Shown: positions 893-32,804 of the stretch, in pieces
Layout of the letters: each line of letters starts with the position of its first letter
How positions within the stretch are numbered: position 1 is the stretch's first letter
DNA from: Planctomycetota bacterium
GTDB taxonomy: Bacteria > Planctomycetota > MHYJ01 > WSZJ01
Reading direction: 5' to 3'
DNA: 36,141 nt
Assembly (NCBI GenBank): GCA_021413805.1
Contig: JAIOPR010000187.1
Span: 1 to 36,141, forward strand
Position numbers and translations under genes: made by a program
The notes under the pieces: generated by a model
What the model was told of the DNA's origin: nothing
Databases searched by the model: none
The model's input: the letters and a program-made list of their open reading frames with translations, nothing else

Positions 893-1606
893 ATGGACGA
901 CCGGCTGATGACCGTAAAGCAAATCGCCGCTTACCTTAGCGTCAACGAGCGCACAGTCCTGAAGCTCGTCTCGGACGGCTCCATCCCGGGGGTCAAGGTC
1001 GGCAACCAGTGGCGCTTCCGCAAGGCCATGATCGACACCTGGCTCGACGACCAGATGCTCGGCGTCACCCCCCGGTACGTCGAACGCACCCGCCCCCCCG
1101 ACCCCTCCCGCCGAATGCTCGAACTCGATTCGTGCTTCCAACCCGACCACATTCAGCCCGCGCTGGCGGCCAGGACGAAAGACGGCGCCATTGAAGAACT
1201 TGCGGCCCTCTCCCATCGCCTCGGCCTCGTCCGCGACAAAACCTGGTTCATGGGCGCCCTCATCGAACGCGAAAACATCATGCCGAGCGCCATCGGCAAC
1301 GGGATCGCCTTCCTCCACACCGTCCGCCGCCACCCCGAACAGGTCACCCGCCCTTTCATGGTCCTCGGCCGCTCGCGCGAAGGCGTCGATTTCGATGCCC
1401 TCGACGGCCAGCCCACGCACCTTCTCTTCGCTCTCGGCCTGAAATACGACGAACTCCACCTCCCCTGGCTCACCAAGCTCTCCCAGATGTTCGCCAGGCC
1501 GGAGGCCGTCCGCGAGCTGCTCGATGCCCCCGACGCCGCCGAAATCTACCGGTCCCTGTCCGAAGCCGAAAAGCGGCTCTCCCCCGCTCCCGATTCCCCC
1601 CTTTAA
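893..1606 (+). CDS. HTH-PTS EIIA fusion protein, second paralogue
   Basis: A 237-residue protein with an excisionase-type helix-turn-helix at residues 6-53 ([20 protein letters not shown]) and an EIIA type 2 domain at about 85-225. The predicted phospho-histidine is His142, but the usual GIAIPH motif reads GIAFLH, so the proline before the histidine is lost. I chose ATG 893 because GGAG at 883-886 is 6 nt upstream; ATG 890 is also possible. It is divergent from the paralogue at 72-761 and lies 91 nt upstream of PEP carboxykinase in the same direction. A role in carbon-flux control is suggested only by this context. Confidence 0.82.
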
Positions 1607-1615
1607 AGAATTCTC

Positions 1616-1632
1616 GCCCCTTCAACCGGGGC
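1616..1632 (+). terminator. Short hairpin between HTH-EIIA gene and pckG
   Basis: GCCCC and GGGGC flank a 7-nt loop just after the stop at 1606, followed by an A/T-rich stretch (AATTTAAT). The 5-bp stem is short, so this is a weak terminator candidate, and read-through into the next gene is possible. Confidence 0.3.
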
Positions 1633-1697
1633 CGAATTTAATACCGCCACCCTGCGGTCCCCCGCGGGCCTCCTCTCACAAGACGGAGCCCTTCACC

Positions 1698-3497
1698 ATG
1701 CCGAAGCCCACGACTGCCTCCGACGCCAAGCCCCACACGAAGAACAAAGCGCTTCTCCAGTGGGTCGCCGACGCCACTGCGCTCACCAGGCCCGACCGCG
1801 TCGTGTGGTGCGACGGGACCGAGAAGGAACACGAACGGCTCACGAAGGAAGCGGTGGACCAGAAGGTCCTGATCGCCCTGAACCAGAAAAAGCGCCCGGG
1901 GTGCTACCTGCACCGCTCGAACCCCAACGACGTCGCGCGGGTCGAGCACCTGACGTTCATCTGCACGCCGACGAAGGAAGAAGCCGGGCCGACGAACCAG
2001 TGGATGGCGCCCGACGAGGCCAAGGCCAAGCTGACAAAGCTGTGCGATGGAGCGATGAAAGGCCGCACGATGTACGTCGTCCCCTACGTCATGGGCCCCC
2101 TCGGTTCCCCGTTCTCCAAAATCGGCGTCGAGATCACCGACTCCATCTACGTCGTCCTCAACATGCGCATCATGACCCGCATGGGCAAGGCCGCCCTCGA
2201 CATGCTCGGCGACTCCAACGACTTCAACCGCGGCTTCCACGCCCTCCTCGACGTCAACCCCGAGCGCCGCTACATCACCCATTTCCCGCAGGAGAATTTC
2301 GTCTGGTCGGTGGGAAGCGGCTACGGCGGGAACGCGCTTCTCGGGAAGAAGTGCCTGGCGCTGCGCATCGGGAGTTACCTGGCGAACCGCGAAGGATGGC
2401 TCGCGGAGCACATGCTGATCCTCGGCGTGGAATCGCCCGAGTGGCAGAAGACGTACGTCGCGGCGGCGTTCCCGAGCGCCTGCGGCAAGACGAACTTCGC
2501 GATGCTCCTCCCGCCGCGCCGGTTTGACGGCTGGAAGGTCTACACGGTGGGCGACGACATCGCCTGGCTCCGCGAGGGCTCGGACGGCCGCCTCTGGGCG
2601 ATCAACCCGGAGAACGGGTATTTCGGCGTCGCGCCCGGCACGAGCTATAAGTCCAACGCGAGCGCCATGAAGTCGATCGAAAAGAACACGCTCTTCACGA
2701 ACGTCGCCCTCACCCCCGACGGCGACATCTGGTGGGAAGGGATGGATAAGGAAGCCCCCGAGGGGACGGTGGACTGGCAGGGGCGCCCGTGGAAGAAGGG
2801 CGGGACGGAAAAGGCGGCGCACGCGAACAGCCGCTTCACGGCCCCGATGGCGAACAACCCGGTGCTGTCGAAGCACGTGGACGACCCGGAAGGCGTGCCG
2901 ATCAGCGCGATCATTTTCGGCGGTCGGCGGGCGACGACGGTGCCGCTGGTGCTGCAGTCGTTCAACTGGAACCACGGCGTCTACATGGGCGCGACGATGG
3001 GAAGCGAGACGACGGCGGCAGCGACGGGCGAGGTGGGGGTGGTGCGGCGCGACCCGATGGCGATGCTTCCGTTCTGCGGCTACAACATGGGCGACTACTT
3101 CCGCCACTGGCTGGAGATGCGGGGCAGGATCGCGCATCCGCCGCGCATCTTCATGGTGAACTGGTTCCGGAAGGGCAAGGAAGGGCAATTCCTCTGGCCC
3201 GGGTATGGCGAGAACATGCGGGTGCTGCGCTGGATCGTGGATCGCGCGCACGTGCGCGTGGGCGGGCAGGAGACGCCGATGGGCTGGGTGCCGCGCGAGG
3301 GCGACATCGACCTCTCGGGCCTGGACATCTCGAGCGACAACTTCAAGGCCGCGACCACCGTCAACCTCGACGAATGGAAGCGCGAGCTGGAGAGCCAGAA
3401 AGAGTTCTTCGACAAGATCGGCCCGACGATGCCGACCCCGATCAAGTTGCAACGCGAACTCCTGCTTGCGGTCATTGACTCCGTCAAAGGTAAGTGA
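1698..3497 (+). CDS. pckG: Phosphoenolpyruvate carboxykinase (GTP)
   Basis: A 599-residue protein, the usual length for the GTP-dependent family. It interconverts oxaloacetate plus GTP with PEP, CO2 and GDP, linking the TCA cycle to gluconeogenesis in the cytoplasm. The nucleotide-binding P-loop FPSACGKTN is at residues 258-266, with the family's reactive cysteine at 262. The metal-binding VGDDIAW motif has Asp286 and Asp287. Other recognisable stretches are [20 protein letters not shown] and PGTSYKSN. The ATP-dependent form has a different P-loop, so this is clearly the GTP type. ATG 1698 is preceded by GGAG at 1686-1689. The frame stays open upstream but without family similarity. Confidence 0.97.
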
Positions 3498-14887: not shown

Positions 14888-16306
14888 TCACGGCACCGAG
14901 ATATCCGGCCGCACGCGGCTGATCACGACCATTTTGTCCCCGCGCTGCATGATGAAGTGCCCGGTAGGGTTCAGCGTGATTTCCCGGTGCTTCCCCGGCC
15001 CCGGCCGCTCCACCGCGATCAGGATCGATTCCTTCTTCGTCAGCGTCCCCACCGCTTCGCCGAAAGACTTGCCTTCGAGCCACGGCGGGCAGTCGAGCTT
15101 GAAGAACTCGTTCCCGTACTGCACGGAGAGCAGCTCGGCGATGATGGTGCTGATCCCGCTGTGGATCGCCATCGAGCTCATCAGGGTGGCGCCGTACTCG
15201 GAAGCGCAGACGACGTCCTCGACGCCGGCCATGCGGAGATGGGCTTCGTGTTCGCGGTTGAGGAGCTCGGCGCAGGTGTAGATGTTGCGGTTGAGTTTCT
15301 CGATCGTGAGGGCGGCGAGGATGGTGCGCGCGTCGCGGTCCTGGTCGCTCCGGTTGCCGGCCTTCTCGCTCATGATGATGGCCTTCGCGGCTCGGCGGAT
15401 CCCGGCTTTCTCGAGGATCTCGGCCTTCGTGAAGTCGCCCGTCAGCAGATACACCTTCTCGCGGTCCACGATCTTCCAGTTGAGCGGCGGGAGTTCCTCC
15501 AGTTCAGCGATCACGACGATGGCGCGGTGGCGTTCGTCCGCCGAGTGCTGAAGTTCCTCCAGCACGAGCGGCGCGCGACGGTCCCAGCCGCAGATGATGA
15601 TGTGGTCTTCGACTTCTTCCAGGTCCATCGAGTGATCCTCCAGTCGGCGGAGTCGTTGTGACATCACCGCCGCCGCGGTGCCGGTGACGATGGCGAAAAG
15701 GCAGAGGCCGGTCATGACGACGATCACCGAAACGATTCGCCCGGCAAACGTTGCGGGCACATGGTCGGCCGGCTGGTTGGACACCATGGAAAGTATCGAC
15801 CACCAGAACGCCTGATCGAAATTCGGAGCAAGACCCGTCGCCTTCTCGAATTCAGCCATGACTGACGCCGCAACCAGGACAACGACGCCCGCGATGGCAA
15901 AGATCACCACGAACTCGCCGCCGGAACCGGCGAGGTAGCGCCTCCGGACCTGGGTTCCAACCCGGAGCAGGCGTAGCAGCCTGGCCAGTCGCAGGAGGCG
16001 GAGGGGGGACGGAACCGGAAGAGGCACGGAGGCGATGATGTCCAGCCAGTACCGCGCGAAGAACCGGGAGCGGTTTCGGTAGGTCCAGCAACGCAGGCCA
16101 AGCTCGCCGAGAAACAACCCTGAGAACACTCCATCCACGAGCTGAAAGAACCGCTGCTGTCCGTCTGTGGGATTGACAATGTTCACCTGCCTGATGACCA
16201 CCACGCACGAAACCAGGATCAGCACCAGAAGCGCGAGCTCAAACCACGGCTGGTGCATGAAACGCCTCACCCAGGCGCGCCTCGGCTCGCCCGGTCGATG
16301 AGGCAT
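14888..16306 (-). CDS. Voltage-gated-type ion channel with RCK/TrkA domains and an atypical selectivity filter
   Basis: A 472-residue membrane protein. The S1-S6-like hydrophobic segments lie in residues 20-215. An S4-like arginine ladder spans about 101-116 (PLRLLRLARLLRLLRV), and the pore region follows at about 163-210. A Rossmann-type RCK/TrkA-N domain starts near 234 (DHIIICGWDRR), and a TrkA-C-like part lies near 400-470. In potassium channels the pore motif is TVGYGD; here the aligned stretch (residues 173-184) reads SMVSNQPADHVP, so the K+ filter is missing. Ion specificity is therefore unknown. The gene follows a Ser/Thr kinase gene by 23 nt, suggesting the kinase may regulate the channel. 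ATG 16306 has no clear Shine-Dalgarno; Met17 is an alternative. Confidence 0.85.
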   Translation of the reverse strand: MPHRPGEPRRAWVRRFMHQPWFELALLVLILVSCVVVIRQVNIVNPTDGQQRFFQLVDGVFSGLFLGELGLRCWTYRNRSRFFARYWLDIIASVPLPVPSPLRLLRLARLLRLLRVGTQVRRRYLAGSGGEFVVIFAIAGVVVLVAASVMAEFEKATGLAPNFDQAFWWSILSMVSNQPADHVPATFAGRIVSVIVVMTGLCLFAIVTGTAAAVMSQRLRRLEDHSMDLEEVEDHIIICGWDRRAPLVLEELQHSADERHRAIVVIAELEELPPLNWKIVDREKVYLLTGDFTKAEILEKAGIRRAAKAIIMSEKAGNRSDQDRDARTILAALTIEKLNRNIYTCAELLNREHEAHLRMAGVEDVVCASEYGATLMSSMAIHSGISTIIAELLSVQYGNEFFKLDCPPWLEGKSFGEAVGTLTKKESILIAVERPGPGKHREITLNPTGHFIMQRGDKMVVISRVRPDISVP

Positions 16307-16329
16307 GACGTAGGTGTCGCTTCTCACAG

Positions 16330-17148
16330 CTAAGGCGCGTTCTCCAGTTCCCACAGCAACTCGGCGGGAGTGCGGAAACGGCGTTCGCGGTCCTTCGCGA
16401 GCATCCGCGGCAGGGTCGCCTTCACCCACGGCGGGATGTGGAACGTCACGTCGTCGATGAACGGCTGCTCCTTCACCTGCGCGATCAGCACGTCTTCGCG
16501 CTTCCCCGTGAACGGCAGCCGGCCGAAGATCATCTGGTAGAGGATGATGCCCATGGAGTAGACGTCGGCGCGGAAGTCGAGGTCGAGGCGGCCGAGGGCC
16601 TGCTCGGGAGACATGAATTCCGGCGTGCCGGCGGTGGTGTCGCTCATGCCGGGCGACAGGTTGCCGATCGGTTCCGCGAGCCCGAGGTCGCACAGCTTGA
16701 CCTGGTCGTGCCCCGTCACGAGCAGGTTGTCCGGCTTCAGGTCGCAGTGGACGAAACCCTTCTCGACCAGCACCGAAAGCGCCTTCGCCGTGTCGAGCAT
16801 CACGCGCCGCGCGATCGGCCCGATGAGCGTGCCGTTGCGCTGGATCAGGTGCGAGAGCGGGATGCACGGCACGTATTCCATCACGAGGTACGGCAGCCCG
16901 TGGACGTTCCCGCGCTTGAGGCCTTTCACGATCCACGGCGAGTTCAGGCTGAGGAGGAGCTGCGATTCGGTGGTGAAGCGATGCAGGTAGGCGGGGTTCT
17001 TCGCCTTTTCGGGGTAGAGCATCTTGATCGCGACGACCTGGAAGGTCGTCATGTCCACCGCCTTGAAGATCGCGGCGAAGCCACCGGTCGCGACCTTGCC
17101 CTGGACCTGGTAGCCCGGGATTGTCTGCGTGTCGGCGGGGGGTTCCAT
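16330..17148 (-). CDS. Small cytoplasmic Ser/Thr protein kinase
   Basis: A 272-residue protein that is essentially only a kinase domain. The glycine loop is at residues 18-27 (KVATGGFAAI), the ATP-binding lysine is Lys42 (VVAIKML), the catalytic loop is HCDLKPDN with Asp136, and the metal loop is DLG with Asp154. Then come AGTPEFMSPEQ and RADVYSMGIILYQM. Two departures from consensus are HRD changed to HCD and DFG to DLG. HCD indicates a kinase not needing activation-loop phosphorylation (non-RD). The catalytic residues are kept, so activity is likely. No transmembrane helix is visible. It is upstream of and close to the channel gene. Confidence 0.92.
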   Translation of the reverse strand: MEPPADTQTIPGYQVQGKVATGGFAAIFKAVDMTTFQVVAIKMLYPEKAKNPAYLHRFTTESQLLLSLNSPWIVKGLKRGNVHGLPYLVMEYVPCIPLSHLIQRNGTLIGPIARRVMLDTAKALSVLVEKGFVHCDLKPDNLLVTGHDQVKLCDLGLAEPIGNLSPGMSDTTAGTPEFMSPEQALGRLDLDFRADVYSMGIILYQMIFGRLPFTGKREDVLIAQVKEQPFIDDVTFHIPPWVKATLPRMLAKDRERRFRTPAELLWELENAP

Positions 17149-18649: not shown

Positions 18650-18798
18650 GTTGAATGCTCCTGCGGGAAGGACCTGAAATGTGATTGAATTAACGTGATT
18701 AAGCGTAGCGGTGGGCCCGGGGAGGGTCAAGGAAGCGCATCGAACCTCCCGTGCGCCACGCCGTTTGGAAGATTCTCACTGTATCCGGAGGGTTTCCC

Positions 18799-20352
18799 AT
18801 GCGTGCCCTGCGCGGACCGGCCCGCTTCCTCCTCTCTGCTGGCGTGCTCGCCGCGGCTTTGCTGTTCGCGATTCCTTCGGGCGCATGTTCCATCAATTTC
18901 CGGAGCCTCGACTGGATCGTCGGCCACTCGCCCCTTATCCTGGTCGGGACGGTCGAATCAATCGAAAAGCTTGAGCCGGGAGACCAGGATCGAGCACTGT
19001 TCGGGGGGCCGGAAGCGGGCACGGGACCCGTGCTCGCGAAGGTACGCGTCCATCGTGTTCTCCACGGAACCTGGACATCGGAAACAGTCCAGATTCGTTC
19101 GGGCCCTGTCGCTTCCTGAGCACCGCACCCCGAGTATTGCGGGCTCGAGGTCGGTCAGACCTCGGTCTTCCTTCTCGTGACTGCGCCGCACGCAGGCTGG
19201 ACGACCCTTGAATATGGCGGGTGCGTTCGTGGAATCGAGGATCTCGACGCCGTCCAATCCAGGCTCCTTCGCGCAAGGACCTGGAGGGCGGAGCACCTCG
19301 ACGAACTGCGCTCGACCGCGCCGAGACTGTTCAAGTCTGCCTCCGAACTCAACGACGAATTGCGCGCGATCGCAAAGAAATGGCCCATTTCCACGCGAGG
19401 CCCAAAGGAATTGCTCCGGCCAGGGGACATGGAAACGAGCGCACACGAGACTGCGGATCTTTCGAAGTCGCTCGAAGCAAGGCTGGCGGTGGTCGATCTC
19501 GACATGATGCTTGAGGCGCTGGCGCTTGACTGGCTGGACACTTCCGCTGAGCACTGGTCAGGCAGCTGGATCTGGCAGAGGGCGGCCGCCGGGGCATTTC
19601 GTGATCGCGGGATAGGGCTGGCACGCCGGAGAAAAAACGAGGCCGAGCGCCTGCTTCGGAGAGCAGGAGTGTCCAAGACCCAGATCGAACATTACATCGA
19701 AGCGATCCCGGATGAGTCAGTGGACGATGAACCGGACTTTCCGCTGAGCCCTCCGGAGCTCTTCGATCCAAAGGGACTTACTCCGGAACTGGCGACGACC
19801 GATTTCCTGCTTCGGTGCGAGGTCTACGACCGCGCCGATATGGCCGGATATTTTTCGATGGATCGTAAGGGACTGGCCCTGATCCAACCGGAACGCGTCC
19901 TCGACCGAATCCCCTCGATGGAGGTCAAGGGGCTTCACTTCGTCGATGCCATCCTGCGGCGGCAGATTGAGGGCGGCCGCCAGGGCATCGAAAGCTTGAA
20001 CTACTCCGACGACCCGGCCTGGCGGAATGATTTCCTCCGCGAGCTTTTCAAGAGGGCGCACGAGCACTGCCCTGAGTACGACCGGGAGCGGCTGTGGGGT
20101 TCCCTCGCCGGCTCGGGGCCGTTTGAGGATGTCTGCGTCGATGCCGCGCTGGCGGAACTGGAATCCGAAGAAAAGGCAGCTGCGGCGGCGCCGAAGGAAG
20201 GGGCCAGTTACTACGCCAAACAACTGCGGAAGAACCTGAAGTCCTTCCTGGCGGCCGCGCGGGCAAGCCGGGACTCGGAGGCCTCGCCGGACATCGACGT
20301 GAAGGATCTGCGCGACTGGTTCGCGAAGCACCCGCCCAAGCCGGAGAAGTAA
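18799..20352 (+). CDS. Predicted exported selenoprotein A with TIMP/netrin-like N-domain (in-frame TGA at 19117)
   Basis: ATG 18799 has a strong Shine-Dalgarno (GGAGGG at 18787-18792). The frame has one TGA at codon 107 and otherwise stays open to a TAA at 20350: 517 residues counting the TGA. A signal peptide ends SGA before Cys30, which would be the mature N-terminus. Then comes a beta-rich domain (PLILVGTVESI; VLAKVRVHRVLHGTW), then SGPVAS-TGA-AP and LEVGQTSVFLLV. In TIMP/netrin-like domains a cysteine sits where the TGA is, followed by a GxxYLV-type strand. Cys114 and Cys142 follow. Residues about 145-517 are helical with no recognised motif. No Shine-Dalgarno supports a restart at GTG 19177. 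A nonsense mutation is the main alternative, made unlikely by the neighbour. Confidence 0.78.
19146..19164 (+). promoter_or_regulatory. Bacterial SECIS-type hairpin in selenoprotein A
   Basis: CGAGGTC and GACCTCG form a perfect 7-bp stem, extendable by one G-T pair, with loop GGTCA. The loop starts 33 nt after the TGA (19117-19119). Bacterial SECIS hairpins have a small apical loop beginning with G; the E. coli fdhF loop, as I recall it, is GGUC. The distance is near the upper end of the range I recall for bacterial elements. Confidence 0.72.
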
Positions 20353-20385
20353 AGCGCCGGATCTGAAACCTTTCGGAGCCAACCC

Positions 20386-21939
20386 ATGCGTCGCCTCGCC
20401 CCGCTGGTCCTTCTCGTCCTGGCCGCCCTTTCTTCGCAAACCGCCCGGGCCTGTCTCGCCGAATACCGAAGCGTGGAGTGGATGGCCGAAACATCGCGCC
20501 TGGCCTTTGTCGGGCGCATTGAAAAGGTTGACCCCGTCGCCAACGGAGGCGGTGAGTACCAGATCGGGGTCCCGGCCGTCGCGACTGTCCGTATCGTGCG
20601 CATGCTCCGTGGCAAGTGGCGGAAAGCGACGATCGAGATCATGAACGGGCCCGTTCCCTCCTGAGCACCGAAAACCATCTATCGTGAATTTCAGGTCGGT
20701 CAGACCTGGATTTTCATGGTGAATGACCTGCCGGCGGCGGGTCCTGTCGGGGGCGATCACGCTTACCACCTGATGCCGGCAGACTCCTTCGAACTCGTCG
20801 AGGCGAGCCTCGCCCGCGCCGAGTCTTTCCGCAGCACTGAACTGGCCCAGATCTCCGCCACCGACCCTGAATCGATCGAGAAGGCCGGCAAGGTCCGTGA
20901 AATTCTCAGAAAACACTCTGCATGGTTGGCCGCAGAGACCGCGGAGGACATTTCAACGCTCTCTGGAGACAAGCTCGCGGCGGAACAGAAGCGCCAGGAC
21001 GATGCTCGCGAAAAGTTCGGCACAGAGGTGGCAGAGACCATCGCGACGGCGTCCGTCCCGACTGCCAGGGCCTTGCTGGCCCTCACCTGGCTGGAGCCGG
21101 AGGACTACGTCTGGCGACAGTCCGAGGATCTCGGTCGAGCCATCGACAAACTGTGCGACTCCCACGCCGGTGAGGTCCACGCGACCTGGGAAAAGCAGGC
21201 GATGGCGATCCTGCGCAAGGCGATGGTGTCGGAGGACGACATCGCCCAGTACCTCACAGACCTGAACACACTCGGATCCTCTCCCACGCTCTCCTGCCCC
21301 TTCGCCCCACCGGGCCGCTTCGGCAAACTCGGGAAGCTGCAGGGCCGTTCGTTCACCACCGATTTCATCCTTCGCTTCGAGTCCTTCGATCGGGGCGAGA
21401 TCTTCAGGCAGTACATGATGGATTCCGAGTCCCTCGCAGGCCTGGACACGGATCGGATCAGCGACCTGGTCGCGTCGCTGTGGCACAGCAGGGCGGACAG
21501 ACTTCGCACTGTTGCATTTCAGATCATCCGGAGGGCTCGCGGCACGAAGTTCGTCGACCTGGTCTGGCGAGACATGATGGATGCTCATCCTTTCGCCTGG
21601 CGCGTGTTCGATAAAAACGGAGCGCTGGGGACGGAGTGCGTCCGGAAGCTGGTGGAATTGGGCGACCAGGGTGAGCCCTCATGGGGGAGAGCCGTTTTCT
21701 GGACTGCGATGAAGTCCGGGGAGTGCTTCGAGCCCGAAGCCGTGGAGCGCGCAATCGGCTCGCTTCGGGAAGTCGAACGAGGCGAACCGGGCAACGATGA
21801 ACGTGCTCGCCTGGCTCGCGAACTGCTCTCATTCCTGAAGGCCGCCAGGGAGTCGCGCGGCGACCCCAAGGAAAGCCTGCTGAATGGGGAAGAATTCGAG
21901 AGGTGGTTCGGCAAGCGCCGCGAAGGCGGCGGGAAGTAG
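20386..21939 (+). CDS. Predicted exported selenoprotein B, tandem paralogue (in-frame TGA at 20662)
   Basis: ATG 20386 follows CGGAG at 20374 and lies 33 nt after the stop of gene A. With its single TGA (codon 93) read through, it is 517 residues, the same as gene A. A signal peptide ends ARA before Cys23. The N-domain matches gene A: RSVEWMAETSRLAFVGRIEK, then NGPVPS-TGA-AP and FQVGQTWIFMV. Cys23 and the TGA-coded residue are the only chalcogen residues of the N-domain, so a Cys-Sec bond is plausible. Residues about 120-517 are mostly helical, similar in layout to gene A and without a known catalytic motif. The part after the TGA lacks a Shine-Dalgarno of its own at ATG 20716. Confidence 0.78.
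20692..20708 (+). promoter_or_regulatory. Bacterial SECIS-type hairpin in selenoprotein B
   Basis: CAGGTC and GACCTG form a perfect 6-bp stem, extendable by a G-T and a T-A pair, around loop GGTCA. The loop again starts 33 nt after the TGA (20662-20664). The 15 bases AGGTCGGTCAGACCT are identical in genes A and B while flanking codons differ, so the structure is conserved more than the surrounding sequence. Confidence 0.72.
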
Positions 21940-22003: not shown

Positions 22004-23314
22004 TCATTTCCCCGCGGGAACGACGACATGCACCTCCGAGGTGATGACCCTCTTCGGATCCCCCCACTTCTCCTGCCGCTTCAGCATCAGCTCGAAATCG
22101 ACCTCCAGCGTCCCGTTGAAGACCTCCGCGCCATTCAGCTGCACCACGACCGGCTTCGAAAGGTCAACCATATCGGGGCTGACGCGGATGGTGAAGTCTT
22201 TCACGGCCTTCGTCGTGACCTTGTAGAGGTTGTCGCCCGCGTACTCCGCTTCGATGCGCGCTGTGTCGCCGCACTCGCCGAACTCGAGCCACCAGGCGCC
22301 CTTGAGCGGCGCGGTTTTGGGGAAGGTCTTGTACCAGAGGGCGTCCCAGCACCAGACGATGCGCGTCGGCCAGACGATGCGGCGTTCCTTTTCGACGACG
22401 CCGAGGACGACCTTCGCGATCTCGGCCTGGTCCTTGCCGAACCAGGAGTTGTGGTCGCCGCCCTTGTACTCGTGGTACCAGACGGGCGTGCCGAGTTTCT
22501 TGAGCCACTCGACGCCTTTGCGGTCGAGGTCCACGGGGACTTCCTTGTCCTCGTCGCCGTGCCAGATCCAGTAGCCGAGTTTCCCGGGCTGCTCGTACGG
22601 GCCGCGCTCGCCCCAGTTCGCCGGGGGGCCGCCCGCCATCGGCATCACGGCTGCCCAGAACTCGGGGTAGCGGAGAGAGAACCACCACGAGCCGAACCCG
22701 CCTGCGGAAAACCCGCTCAGGTAGATCCGGTCCGGGTCCACGTTGAACTTCGCGCGCCACGAGTCCATGAACGAAAAGAAAAACGACTCCTCGTAATCCA
22801 GCGGGTCCGTCGCGCCGTCCACCGGGTGCCAGTACGACTTGTTCGGCGAAACGGGCGCCACGCAGATCATTCCCTTCGACGACGCCCACGTGGACCACGG
22901 CTCCGTCCCCGCCGGCCCGTTCGAGCCGTGCAGGTAAATCCACAATGGCGTCGGCTTCGCCGGGTCGTACTTCGGCGGCAGGACCCACGCGTACTCCCGC
23001 TCCACCGTCCCCTGCTTGAACTTTTCCTGCCCCCGAAGCACCGGCAGCCCCTTCCCATCCTTCGGCGCCACCCGCACCGGCGCCCATTTGTGGATCAGCT
23101 CCAGGTCCTTCTTCACCGCCTCCGACCACGGCGCCCGCTCCCACTTCCCTGCCTCCACCAGCGCCTCTTTCCGCTTCGCCGGGTCCTCCGAAAGGAACTC
23201 CTTGATCCGCTTCTGACGGACCGGCGAGTCGGTCTTCAGTTTTTTCGGTGAAGGGTCTTCCGCGAAGGCGGCCAGCGCGATGGCGCAGAGAGCGGCGACG
23301 GGGAGGATCCTCAT
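22004..23314 (-). CDS. Secreted alpha/beta-hydrolase esterase (PHB-depolymerase-like)
   Basis: A 436-residue protein with signal peptide MRILPVAALCAIALAAFA. The alpha/beta-hydrolase core has LWIYLHGSNG (oxyanion region), the nucleophile elbow GFSAGG with Ser203, an acid in WHGDEDKEVP (Asp254 or Asp256) and His288 in GGDHNSWF. It resembles exported esterases of the polyhydroxybutyrate-depolymerase/feruloyl-esterase type, but the substrate is unknown. An N-terminal helical region (25-75) and a C-terminal beta domain (about 335-436) extend it. The gene is convergent with selenoprotein B, with 64 nt between stops and no clear terminator. No strong Shine-Dalgarno is seen before ATG 23314. Confidence 0.85.
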   Translation of the reverse strand: MRILPVAALCAIALAAFAEDPSPKKLKTDSPVRQKRIKEFLSEDPAKRKEALVEAGKWERAPWSEAVKKDLELIHKWAPVRVAPKDGKGLPVLRGQEKFKQGTVEREYAWVLPPKYDPAKPTPLWIYLHGSNGPAGTEPWSTWASSKGMICVAPVSPNKSYWHPVDGATDPLDYEESFFFSFMDSWRAKFNVDPDRIYLSGFSAGGFGSWWFSLRYPEFWAAVMPMAGGPPANWGERGPYEQPGKLGYWIWHGDEDKEVPVDLDRKGVEWLKKLGTPVWYHEYKGGDHNSWFGKDQAEIAKVVLGVVEKERRIVWPTRIVWCWDALWYKTFPKTAPLKGAWWLEFGECGDTARIEAEYAGDNLYKVTTKAVKDFTIRVSPDMVDLSKPVVVQLNGAEVFNGTLEVDFELMLKRQEKWGDPKRVITSEVHVVVPAGK

Positions 23315-28216: not shown

Positions 28217-29272
28217 ATGAAACTCACCCCATTCCTCCTTTTCCTCGCCCTCGCCGCCGGCTGCGGCCAGGGGTCCGGAACCCCGGGCGAAGGCGCGGGG
28301 TCGAAGTGGGGAAAGAAGCCGGGCGGGGCACAGGAAGCAGTCCCGGTCCGCACGGAGAAACTCGGGCGCGGCCCCATCGCGCTTCGGCTTCTCACAACCT
28401 CCACGGTGGACGCCGTGCGCCGCGTGGAAGTGGTTTCGAAAGCGGCGGGGATCGTGAAGGAACTCCTGGTCGTGGAGGGCGGCACGGTCGAGGCGGGCCG
28501 CGTCATCGCGCGCCTCGACGACGACGAACTCGCCCTCGTGAAAAAGAAGGCGGACGTCAACCTCGCGAAGGCGAAGGACGATTACGAGCATACGAAGACC
28601 CTGCTCGCCGAGAAGTACGTCAGCGTGGACGAGTTCCGGAAGACCGAACAGGCGTACCAGACGGCGCAGCTCGAGGTGGAAACCGCGACGCTCGCGCTGG
28701 CCAACGCCACGATCAAGGCCTCCATCACGGGGACGGTGACGAGGCTCGACGTGCAGAAGGGCAAGTACCTCGCGATGAACGCGGCGTTCGGCGAAATCAC
28801 GGACCTGGGCGAGCTCGAATGCGCCATCTTCGTCCCCGAAAGGGATCTCTTCCGCCTCCACACCGACCAGCCGGCCGATGTCGCGAGCGAAACGCTGGGG
28901 CTGAAGTTCGAGGGGAAGGTCAAACGCGTGAACGCGGTGATCGACCGTTCCAGCGGCACAGCAAAGGCGTACCTGTCTGTCCAGGACCCGGAAGGCCGGC
29001 TGCGGCCGGGGATGTTCGTGGACGTGTCGATCGTGCTCGAGCCGCACGACCAGGCGCTGATCGTGCCCAAGAAGGCGCTCGTCTTCGACGAGGGGCGGCC
29101 GGGGATTTTCGTCAAAAAGGGTGAGGAGGCGAAGTGGTCGGAACTGGAGCTGGGATTCCAGGAGAAGGACCGCGCGGAGGTGATGAAAGGCGCGATGGAG
29201 GGGGATGAGGTGATTGTTGTCGGGCAGAATGGGCTCAAGGACGGAACAAAGGTCAAGGTCATGGCGGAATGA
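28217..29272 (+). CDS. RND efflux periplasmic adaptor (membrane fusion lipoprotein)
   Basis: A 351-residue protein. MKLTPFLLFLALAAGCGQ is a lipoprotein signal with lipobox AAGC. The lipoyl-like domain (GIVKELLVVEGGTVEAGRVI) flanks a helical hairpin at about 115-165 (LVKKKADVNLAKAKDDYEHT), and the second lipoyl half has ASITGTVTRLDVQKGKYLA. The beta-barrel and membrane-proximal domains follow (RLRPGMFVDVSI; ALIVPKKALVF). It links an RND pump to an outer-membrane channel. Two RND permeases lie downstream; no outer-membrane factor gene is in the window. A palindrome lies between it and the first permease. Confidence 0.94.
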   Translation: MKLTPFLLFLALAAGCGQGSGTPGEGAGSKWGKKPGGAQEAVPVRTEKLGRGPIALRLLTTSTVDAVRRVEVVSKAAGIVKELLVVEGGTVEAGRVIARLDDDELALVKKKADVNLAKAKDDYEHTKTLLAEKYVSVDEFRKTEQAYQTAQLEVETATLALANATIKASITGTVTRLDVQKGKYLAMNAAFGEITDLGELECAIFVPERDLFRLHTDQPADVASETLGLKFEGKVKRVNAVIDRSSGTAKAYLSVQDPEGRLRPGMFVDVSIVLEPHDQALIVPKKALVFDEGRPGIFVKKGEEAKWSELELGFQEKDRAEVMKGAMEGDEVIVVGQNGLKDGTKVKVMAE

Positions 29273-29286
29273 CGGCACAGGACAAT

Positions 29287-29424
29287 TGCAAACCCCAACT
29301 CCAAATCCCAACTCCAAATCCCAGCGGCGAGAGACGGACGTTGGACCGCTGCGGGGACGGAAACCCGGCCTGTGATGTTCGTGATTGGTATTTGGAGTTG
29401 GGATTTGGGACTTGGAGTTTGTCG
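29287..29424. repeat. Long palindrome with GGATTTG/GGAGTTG heptad arms
   Basis: A perfect 19-bp pairing joins 29301-29319 and 29390-29408, inside imperfect arms of about 37 bp. The right arm reads as 7-base words: GGTATTT, GGAGTTG, GGATTTG, GGACTTG, GAGTTTG. An inner stem, CAGCGG (29322-29327) with CCGCTG (29346-29351), makes a branched shape. It sits within the apparent RND operon, between adaptor and permease. Confidence 0.85.
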
Positions 29425-29456
29425 TTGACCTTCTCCCGGGTCTCCGTCGCCGCCCC

Positions 29457-32400
29457 ATGAAATCCACCGCCTCCGGCTTCTTTGGTTTCACTGTCTCCCG
29501 CCCCGTCGCGGTCTTCATGATCACTCTCTCATTCGCCGTCTTCGGCGCCGTCTCCTACCGCCGCCTCGCGCTCAACCTCATGCCGGACATCTCCTATCCC
29601 TCCGTCACCATCCGCACCGAGATGGAGGGCTCAGCCCCTGAGGACGTCGAGCGCGGCGTCACGGAACCCGTCGAGGAGGCCGTCGGCGTCGTCGGCGGCC
29701 TTGTCCAGCTCACCAGCACTTCCCGCGCCGGCATGAGCGAAGTCACCCTCGAGTTCGAATGGGGGACAAAGATCGAGAACGCGCTCCAAGAGGTCCGCGA
29801 GAAGCTCGACCACCTGCAGCTGCCGCGCGAAGCGAAGCACCCGGTGCTCCTGCGCTATGACCCCAACCTCGACCCGATCATGCGCGTGGGCCTGACCGGC
29901 GACCGCGGCCTGGTCGCGCTTCGGCAGCTTGCCGACGAAGAAGCGCGCCGTTCGCTGGAGAGCACGCCGGGGGTCGCGGCGGTAAAGGTTCGCGGCGGGC
30001 GGGAGGAAGAAATCCGCGTCGAGCTCCACCGCGCCGCGCTCGCCCAGCTCGGCCTCGACCCGCGCGCCGTCGCCGAACGCCTCGGGCAGGAAAACCTGAA
30101 CGCCGCTTCCGGCCAGCTCGTCGAGGGCGACATCCAGTATCTCGTCCGCACCCTGAACGAATTCCGGTCGGACGCCGAGATCGGGGAAATCGTCCTCCAG
30201 CGCAAGGGCGACGCCGCGGTGAAGCTCAAGGACGTCGCGACGATCCGGCGCGTCTCGAAGGACCCGAAGGTGCTCGCCCGGATCGACGGGCGCGAAGCCG
30301 TGCTGCTCGACGTGTACCGCGAAGCCGACGCCAACATCGTCACCGTCGCCGACGCGGTCCGCGCGCGGCTTGAAGGCGCACCCGATCCGTGGTGGAAGAA
30401 GTACATGAAAGGCAGCGGAGGTCCGCAGGAAGAACCGGAAGACGACGGCCGCCTCAAGCTCCCGGCCGGCGTCCAGGCGGTCGTCCTCACGGACCAGAGC
30501 GGCTTCGTCCGCTCTTCCATCGACGCCGTCTACTCCGCCGCCTGGCAGGGCGCGCTGCTCGCCGTCGTCATCCTTTTCCTCTTCCTCCGAAACCTGCAGG
30601 ACACGCTGATCATCGGCGTCTCGATTCCGCTCTCGATCATCACGACGTTCGGCGCGATGCACATTTTCGGCATCTCGCTCAACGTCATGTCGCTCGGGGG
30701 CCTCGCGCTCGGCGTCGGCATGATGGTGGACGCCTCGATCGTCGTCCTCGACTCGATCGACCGCTGTCGAAGCGAGGGCGACGACCGCGTCGCCGCGGCC
30801 ATCCGCGGCACCCGCGAGGTCGGCCTCGCTGTCTCCGCTTCCACCCTCACCACCGTCGTCGTCTTCTTCCCGATCGCCTTCGTCGAAGGGATCGCGGGCC
30901 AGATCTTCCGCGACCAGGCGCTCACCGTCTGTTTCTCTCTCATGGCCTCCATGGGCGTCTCGCTTTTCTTCGTCCCGATGCTGGCGTCGCGGGAGTGGAA
31001 GCGTCCCGATCCCGGGGAGAGGGTGTTCAAGCTGTTCTGCCTCGACTATGTGAAGCGGATCGGGGCGGGGTTCGGGTCGAAGACGATCGGGGGCGTGGTC
31101 GATGCGTGCCTGGCGATCCTCATCCTCCCCGTTGCCGTCGTGCTCGAGATCGTCCTCCAGATCCTGGTGTGGACAACGTGGGGTCTGACCTGGGTTCTCC
31201 TCTGGCTCTTCCGGATCCTCGGGTTTGCCCTCGGCGCGCTGGTCTGGCCGTTTCTCTGGGTCTTCACGAAGTTCATGGACGCCATGAACGAGCTTTACCC
31301 CGCCGTCCTGCGGGTCGCGCTTCGGAGCAAACTCGCGCTCGCGGCGATCTCGGTCGCGGCGGTTTTTGGGACGGTCAAGCTCGTGCCGCGGCTGCAGCAG
31401 GAGTTGATCCCGACGATGCACCAGGGGGAGTTCATCCTCGAGGTCAGCCTTCCCGTCGGGACGCCGATCGAGCGGACCGATGCGGAGGTCGCGAAGCTGG
31501 ACGAAGCGATCCGCAGGGTGCCGGGGGTGGCGCGGGTGGTGACGGCGGTGGGGGTTGAGGACGACGCGAACCGCCGGGAGAGTGAAGGCGAAAACACGGC
31601 GCGGCTCCGGGTCGCGCTCAAACCGGCCAAAGATCTCGCGGTCGCGGAGGCCGCGGTGCTCGAGGCGCTTCGCCAGCGCTTCAAGTCGATCCCCGACGTC
31701 GCGATCAAGGTGGCGCACCCCGTGCTGTTCTCGTTCCGGACGCCGCTGGAACTGGAAGTGCGCGGGCACGATCTCCCCGCGATCCGGAAGGCGGCGCGGG
31801 GGGCGGAGGAAGCGATGGCGGCAATTCCGCAGCTTGCGGACGTGCAGTCCACCGTCGGGCGCGGCAGCCCGGAAATCCGGGTATCGTACAACCGGGCGAA
31901 GCTGTCGGAGTACGGGCTCGACATCAACGCGGTGGCGACGATCGTGCAGCACGAGGTGCTCGGGACCGAGGCCACGAAGCTGGCGCAGGCCGAGCGCAAA
32001 GTGCCGGTGCGCGTGCAGGGCGCCGAAACCGACGTTGGGGAACTCGCGAAAATCGCGTCCATCGTCGTGAACCCGGGAGGCGCCGTCCCGGTGCGGCTCG
32101 GCGCCGTCGCGACGTTCGCGAGGGCGGAAGGGCCGAATGAAATCCGCCGCGTGGCGCACCAGAGGGCGGCGCTGGTCCGCGCGAACGTCAAAGGCTACGA
32201 CCTGGCGGGGGCGTCGCGGGCCGTCGGCGACGTCGTGGCGCAGCTTCCGCGCGACGCGGACGTGACGTTCGTGGTCGGCGGGCAGAGCCGCGAAATGGCC
32301 GCTTCCGGACGGTCGATGATGTTCGCGATCCTGCTCGCCGTGTTCCTCGTCTACGTCGTGATGGCGTCGCAGTTCGAAAGCCTGATGCACCCGTTCCTGA

Positions 32401-32804
32401 TCATGTTCACGGTCCCCATGGCCCTCGCCGGCGTCGTCCTCGCCCTTCTCTGGACCGCCACTCCCGTCTCGGTCGTCGTGGCCATCGGCGTCGTCGTCCT
32501 CGCCGGCATCGCCGTGAACAACGGGATCGTCCTCATCGACGCCGCCAACCAGATCCGCCGCGCCGGCGCCGACGCCACCGAGGCCATCATCCGCGCTTCC
32601 AAGTCCCGCCTCCGCCCCGTCCTCATGACAAGCCTCACGACCATCCTCGGCCTCATCCCCATGGCCCTCGGGATCGGCGGCGGCGCCGAACTCCAGGCGC
32701 CCCTCGCCATCACCGTCCTTGGCGGCATGGTCTCCAGCACTTTCCTCACCCTCGTGCTCATCCCTGCCCTCTGGCACGCCGTCGAATCGCGGAAGCCCGC
32801 ATGA
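29457..32804 (+). CDS. RND efflux permease 1, with an extra hydrophobic insertion
   Basis: A 1115-residue inner-membrane pump of the AcrB/MdtB superfamily. It starts in the usual way (VSRPVAVFMITLSFAVFGAV) with large periplasmic loops after TM1 and TM7. The TM4 proton-relay motif is GVGMMVDASIVVLDSIDR: one Asp, where AcrB has two adjacent Asp. An unusual segment between TM6 and TM7 contains three more hydrophobic stretches (ILILPVAVVLEIVLQILVW; LLWLFRILGFALGALVWPFL), lengthening the protein beyond the usual 1030-1050 residues. Its last 4 nt overlap the next permease start (ATGA), so both are translated together. The substrate is unknown. Confidence 0.94.
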   Translation: MKSTASGFFGFTVSRPVAVFMITLSFAVFGAVSYRRLALNLMPDISYPSVTIRTEMEGSAPEDVERGVTEPVEEAVGVVGGLVQLTSTSRAGMSEVTLEFEWGTKIENALQEVREKLDHLQLPREAKHPVLLRYDPNLDPIMRVGLTGDRGLVALRQLADEEARRSLESTPGVAAVKVRGGREEEIRVELHRAALAQLGLDPRAVAERLGQENLNAASGQLVEGDIQYLVRTLNEFRSDAEIGEIVLQRKGDAAVKLKDVATIRRVSKDPKVLARIDGREAVLLDVYREADANIVTVADAVRARLEGAPDPWWKKYMKGSGGPQEEPEDDGRLKLPAGVQAVVLTDQSGFVRSSIDAVYSAAWQGALLAVVILFLFLRNLQDTLIIGVSIPLSIITTFGAMHIFGISLNVMSLGGLALGVGMMVDASIVVLDSIDRCRSEGDDRVAAAIRGTREVGLAVSASTLTTVVVFFPIAFVEGIAGQIFRDQALTVCFSLMASMGVSLFFVPMLASREWKRPDPGERVFKLFCLDYVKRIGAGFGSKTIGGVVDACLAILILPVAVVLEIVLQILVWTTWGLTWVLLWLFRILGFALGALVWPFLWVFTKFMDAMNELYPAVLRVALRSKLALAAISVAAVFGTVKLVPRLQQELIPTMHQGEFILEVSLPVGTPIERTDAEVAKLDEAIRRVPGVARVVTAVGVEDDANRRESEGENTARLRVALKPAKDLAVAEAAVLEALRQRFKSIPDVAIKVAHPVLFSFRTPLELEVRGHDLPAIRKAARGAEEAMAAIPQLADVQSTVGRGSPEIRVSYNRAKLSEYGLDINAVATIVQHEVLGTEATKLAQAERKVPVRVQGAETDVGELAKIASIVVNPGGAVPVRLGAVATFARAEGPNEIRRVAHQRAALVRANVKGYDLAGASRAVGDVVAQLPRDADVTFVVGGQSREMAASGRSMMFAILLAVFLVYVVMASQFESLMHPFLIMFTVPMALAGVVLALLWTATPVSVVVAIGVVVLAGIAVNNGIVLIDAANQIRRAGADATEAIIRASKSRLRPVLMTSLTTILGLIPMALGIGGGAELQAPLAITVLGGMVSSTFLTLVLIPALWHAVESRKPA

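Follow-up and report, generated by a model that had tools for sequence, protein, structure and literature searches.

Selenocysteine (Sec) is inserted at UGA codons with a downstream hairpin, and most known selenoproteins are thioredoxin-like. In TIMP-1, the N-terminal Cys1 is disulfide-bonded to Cys70, and proteins of the TIMP type bind a metal centre via their N-terminal cysteine site. The constraints on bacterial SECIS (bSECIS) hairpins are a loop of 3-9 nt, a stem of 4-16 bp, a G in the first two loop positions, a spacing of 16-37 nt from the UGA and an MFE of -7.5 or lower (PMC13188914), and Cys homologues are the usual filter in selenoprotein searches (PMC13188914). Some selC* tRNA-Cys carry UCA anticodons (PMC7609411).

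We analysed a window (the whole stretch of DNA studied here) of 36,141 nt and found in it two genes arranged head to tail, each interrupted by one TGA (Table 1). Like the SelB-dependent selenoproteins with an in-gene SECIS, for example SelD of the same genome and FdhF of E. coli, both genes had an in-frame UGA and, directly after it and still inside the reading frame, a hairpin whose small loop opens with GG, and SelA, SelB and SelD were encoded in the genome. The spacing was 33 nt in the pair vs about 17 nt in the SelD of the same genome. Unlike these selenoproteins, the pair had the motif GPVxSUAP without CxxU/UxxC or a thioredoxin-like signature. Sec insertion at both TGAs is by far the best reading of the two genes and in our view highly probable; the SECIS-grade covarying hairpin, the Sec machinery and the use of TGA as a stop elsewhere support it well, as the original prediction had proposed. 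A tandem duplication would have given rise to a pair of exported selenoproteins of one new family. The ribosome would meet UGA in the codon context TCC-UGA-GCA-CCG, SelB would bind the hairpin with the GGUCA loop 33 nt downstream and deliver Sec-tRNA-Sec, and insertion of Sec would yield the full protein of 517 residues.

Table 1 Features of the gene pair (positions in the window)
Feature	Position	Strand	Details
Gene 1, 517 codons, one in-frame TGA, predicted exported selenoprotein	18799-20352	+	Shine-Dalgarno GGAGGG 18787-18792; putative signal peptide ends SGA, before C30
Gene 2, 517 codons, one in-frame TGA, paralogue of gene 1 (27% identity), 33 nt downstream	20386-21939	+	Shine-Dalgarno CGGAG 20374-20378; putative signal peptide ends ARA, before C23
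In-frame TGA of gene 1, predicted Sec107 (U107)	19117-19119	+	
In-frame TGA of gene 2, predicted Sec93 (U93)	20662-20664	+	
Predicted bacterial SECIS hairpin, gene 1, 8 bp, loop GGUCA	19145-19165	+	-12.9 kcal/mol
Predicted bacterial SECIS hairpin, gene 2, 8 bp, loop GGUCA	20690-20710	+	-11.0 kcal/mol
N-terminal domain, gene 1, mature Cys30 to first long helix, holds predicted Sec107	18886-19278	+	low-confidence model
N-terminal domain, gene 2, Cys23 and predicted Sec93	20452-20826	+	weak Pfam NtA match, E=0.13

Each gene held exactly one in-frame TGA, and both fell in the same alignment column and the same context, GPVxS-TGA-AP, as had been claimed; read through, both frames indeed ran to 517 codons, ending with TAA in gene 1 and TAG in gene 2. 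The V-G-Q-T described after the TGA was common to both genes and began nine residues after AP (eight between). The motif GPVxS-TGH-AP-x8-VG[QEDH] occurred twice in the window, compared with 0.00 expected from shuffled windows. The genes were 27% identical overall and 34% identical in the N-terminal domain, and the longest identical DNA runs between them were a 15-nt stretch at the hairpin (AGGTCGGTCAGACCT) and the 12-nt TGA context (TCCTGAGCACCG). The window came from a fragmented MAG (4.57 Mb, 377 contigs, 82% complete), which might suggest pseudogenes or assembly errors in which a functional codon was lost to TGA; but a single error cannot account for an identical TGA in an identical 12-base context when the two genes differ everywhere else, and over 517 codons no second defect was present in either frame, so we consider this explanation hardly credible. 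Upstream the pair is flanked by a DUF2090 protein and downstream by a hydrolase; both were on the other strand and looked unrelated.

The coding pattern was said to continue unbroken past the TGA, and this was what we found. The halves after the TGA aligned in frame over 427 columns between gene 1 and gene 2 (23% identity, BLASTP E=1e-24), the halves before it aligned at E=1e-14, and neither the base composition nor the G+C by codon position changed at the TGA in either gene. The true starts were preceded by the Shine-Dalgarno-like sequences given in Table 1, and none was found before the first possible starts after the TGA (GTG 19177 and ATG 20716), in agreement with the original prediction. 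TGA had also been named as the normal stop of pckG, an RND permease and an ATPase; this was correct for the first two, but the named ATPase could not be identified. Several ordinary genes of the window ended in TGA, namely pckG (1524-3497), an ion channel (14888-16936), a hydrolase (22004-23314), HlyD (28217-29272) and the RND permease (29385-32804); hence there is no general reassignment of the codon.

If the TGAs were true stops, the genes would encode short exported proteins of 106 and 92 residues, and the hairpin would be a regulatory or partial-readthrough device without Sec. The first halves, which are continuous and have a signal peptide and a Shine-Dalgarno sequence, would fit such proteins, as would the failure to find an intact selC in the assembly. 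However, 410 codons in gene 1 and 424 in gene 2 stayed open in frame after the TGA and were conserved between the paralogues at the E-value given above, these downstream halves had no start signal of their own, and the position, loop and stem of the hairpin agreed with the SECIS model. We therefore regard true stops as quite improbable, and prefer Sec insertion.

The strands of the two hairpins were 5'-UCGAGGUC-GGUCA-GACCUCGG-3' in gene 1 and 5'-UUCAGGUC-GGUCA-GACCUGGA-3' in gene 2, and in both genes the loop started 33 nt after the UGA. All four bSECIS constraints held for both (loop 5, stem 8, GG, spacing 33, -12.9 and -11.0 kcal/mol). Only 46% of the identical amino acids in the whole gene pair shared their codon, and a coinciding hairpin 15-mer appeared in 0 of 20,000 synonymous recodings of the region; in 0.9% of these recodings, hairpins of such length arose at matching positions in the two genes. 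Three of the eight stem pairs differed between the paralogues, and all three were still paired (G-C/C-G, a full swap; C-G/U-G; U-G/U-A), with different residues encoded at the varying pairs (E/Q, S/W). When the partner was slid by one column, the pairing fell from 100% to 50% or less. The shuffling control of covariation gave 250/500, as two sequences cannot reach significance, and the free energy of the gene-2 hairpin was not unusual relative to synonymous recoding (28%), so what speaks for the hairpin is that the two genes agree. A SECIS hairpin could here be recognised from just two paralogues via covariation.

The hairpin 15-mer occurred at only these two places in the 4.57-Mb assembly. 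SECIS-like 15-mers elsewhere in the genome, with 1-2 mismatches, were rejected; they had no plausible in-frame TGA. The conserved ACCG right after UGA-GC and the CGGU that tops the hairpin were complementary in both genes, and a pseudoknot may form there (19122-19125 with 19152-19155; 20667-20670 with 20697-20700).

As for the Sec machinery, selA, selB and selD were present in the genome (SelA 453 bits, SelB 340 bits, SelD 355 bits), but an intact tRNA-Sec gene (selC) was not found in the 82%-complete MAG. SelD had one in-frame TGA of its own (SSCAG-U-ASK), at the usual, known Sec site of this protein, and a SECIS-like hairpin with a spacing of about 17 nt, a 3-nt loop and -8.2 kcal/mol. SelD is thus itself a predicted selenoprotein and serves as an internal positive control for Sec decoding. 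About 14 kb from this gene, on the same contig (C243:24809-25732, minus strand), lay a second SelD-like protein without in-frame stop, fused behind a pyridine-nucleotide-disulfide/NADH-dehydrogenase-like domain.

The sole tRNA candidate with a UCA anticodon (C376:10876-10975, minus strand, 41.9 bits) was a tRNA-Sec-like gene that lacked the 5' acceptor strand and whose D region contained insertions. It was homologous in its 3' half and downstream flank to selC of a genome of the same genus, and it appears to be a leftover of selC or else a tRNA-Sec that has changed strongly. Matches to the selC anticodon arm on other contigs were rejected, as they were not tRNAs. Intact tRNA-Sec with the anticodon UCA (72-77 bits) was found in all four genomes of the same genus, one of which had two copies, so a second copy that was not assembled would be the likeliest reason for the missing intact selC.

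Two other genes bear on whether the UGA might be read as cysteine through the selC*/SelB* system, in which a selC*-type tRNA-Cys works with a second SelB. One is a class-II tRNA (C10:4768-4858, minus strand) that scored 53.2 bits, over the tRNA-Sec cut-off, has the anticodon GCA and U73, and resembles the selC* tRNA-Cys of Mukai et al. 2017. The other is a second, divergent SelB-like protein (C338:3239-4291, minus strand, 194 bits), whose altered G-domain motifs (GLSGHGKS, DLPGSDRF, SRVD) suggest that its GTPase function was lost or changed. With a tRNA-Cys-like gene of class II and an additional SelB-like gene, the genome thus resembles the selC*/SelB* system, and the UCA anticodons of some selC* tRNA-Cys (PMC7609411) would fit a cysteine reading. 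However, the GCA anticodon of the tRNA on C10 does not read UGA, and the genome yielded no selC*-like tRNA-Cys that carries UCA. Whereas selC* is marked by an 8/4 structure, this tRNA showed none and folds as 7/5; neither it nor the SelB-like gene is linked to the pair. The presence of SelA and of a SelD in its Sec form shows that the genome encodes the genuine Sec pathway, which leaves insertion of cysteine a very slight chance and Sec the preferred reading.

The family had been called undescribed, and nothing that we searched spoke otherwise: there was no match above the cut-off in Pfam, NCBIfam, PHROGs or PDB sequences, and the prokaryotic inventory of 119 selenoprotein families (PMC13188914) contained nothing with the GPVxSUAP motif or a TIMP/NTR domain. 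Homologues beyond the pair were found neither in profile searches of 98 relatives and of all 23 genomes of the class, nor with the N-domain profile in 392 genomes across the phylum, nor by single-sequence and motif/pattern scans in 84,980 species, nor in plasmids and viral contigs. Five weak N-domain matches were rejected as noise, being non-homologous frames, some with internal stops. Given the strictness of the pattern scans, there may be more distant homologues outside the phylum. The original prediction also had Sec replacing a conserved Cys; beyond the pair, in which both genes have TGA at this column, no homologue with or without Cys was found, so no alignment offered a Cys/Sec pair that might bear on this proposal. 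The two genes very likely make up a new selenoprotein family, whose function we can only infer. Searches based on Cys homologues would miss a family that has none, and since genomes are annotated with UGA as stop, both proteins would be fragments in public annotation.

Export had been claimed as well, and the N-terminal sequences support it: read by eye, each begins with a putative signal peptide, whose last residue is followed by a cysteine (Table 1). Cleavage at this point would make the cysteine the N-terminal residue of the mature protein. Mature residues 1 to about 130 would then probably adopt an NTR/TIMP-like OB fold, with about 350 residues of helices after it. Only two sequences exist, so the AlphaFold models were weak, with a mean pLDDT of 44 for gene 1 and 48 for gene 2, too poor for distances. 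Nevertheless, the gene-1 model had the order of helix and beta-strands of an NTR domain, and its top seven Foldseek matches were all NTR domains (probability 0.96-1.00, E 5e-3 to 0.14), including agrin NtA, PCOLCE1, meteorin and TIMP-2. From this model, the N-terminal domain of gene 1 is probably an NTR/TIMP-like OB fold. The gene-2 model gave no NTR matches by Foldseek, only insignificant armadillo/HEAT-like ones, and the Pfam NtA match of gene 2 (12.5 bits) was below the cut-off of 25.1. A search of 99 genomes with Pfam TIMP returned nothing over the cut-off.

The pair resembles the NTR/TIMP-like OB folds (agrin NtA, the PCOLCE1 NTR domain, TIMP-1/2) in the predicted fold, in the mature N-terminal Cys and in a second Cys or Sec about 70 residues on. 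It differs from them in lacking significant sequence similarity, in the predicted Sec where the presumed disulfide partner would be, in the long helical region after the domain and in being bacterial. If the NTR assignment is true, the pair adds a fold and a Cys-Sec geometry that are unlisted among known selenoproteins.

Between the two N-terminal domains, no Cys/Sec residues other than mature Cys1 and Sec were conserved, and the gene-2 domain had no others at all; there the two lie 70 residues apart. Given the Cys1-Cys70 bond of TIMP-1, we propose, tentatively, that a Cys1-Sec selenenylsulfide could be the active redox pair of the N-terminal domain, an analogy that we would sooner expect to fail than to hold. 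The pair might accordingly represent a new class of exported selenoproteins, with Sec in an NTR/TIMP-like domain forming a reversible selenenylsulfide with the N-terminal Cys, as a redox switch at the site where TIMPs bind metal; this too is a speculative proposal with the odds against it. The chance that Sec is inserted but that the domain is not NTR-like and has no Cys1-Sec pair, Sec acting alone or with another partner, is considerable, if somewhat short of even; such an arrangement competes with the proposed mechanism and is compatible with Sec insertion itself. The low confidence of the models would agree with it, as would the NTR matches coming from one of the two models and the further cysteines near Sec in gene 1, C114 and C142. 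On the other side, the top matches of the gene-1 model were all NTR domains, the sole weak Pfam match of gene 2 in this region was to agrin NtA, which is of the NTR-type fold too, and the Cys-to-Sec spacing of gene 2 resembles that of Cys1 and Cys70 in TIMP-1.
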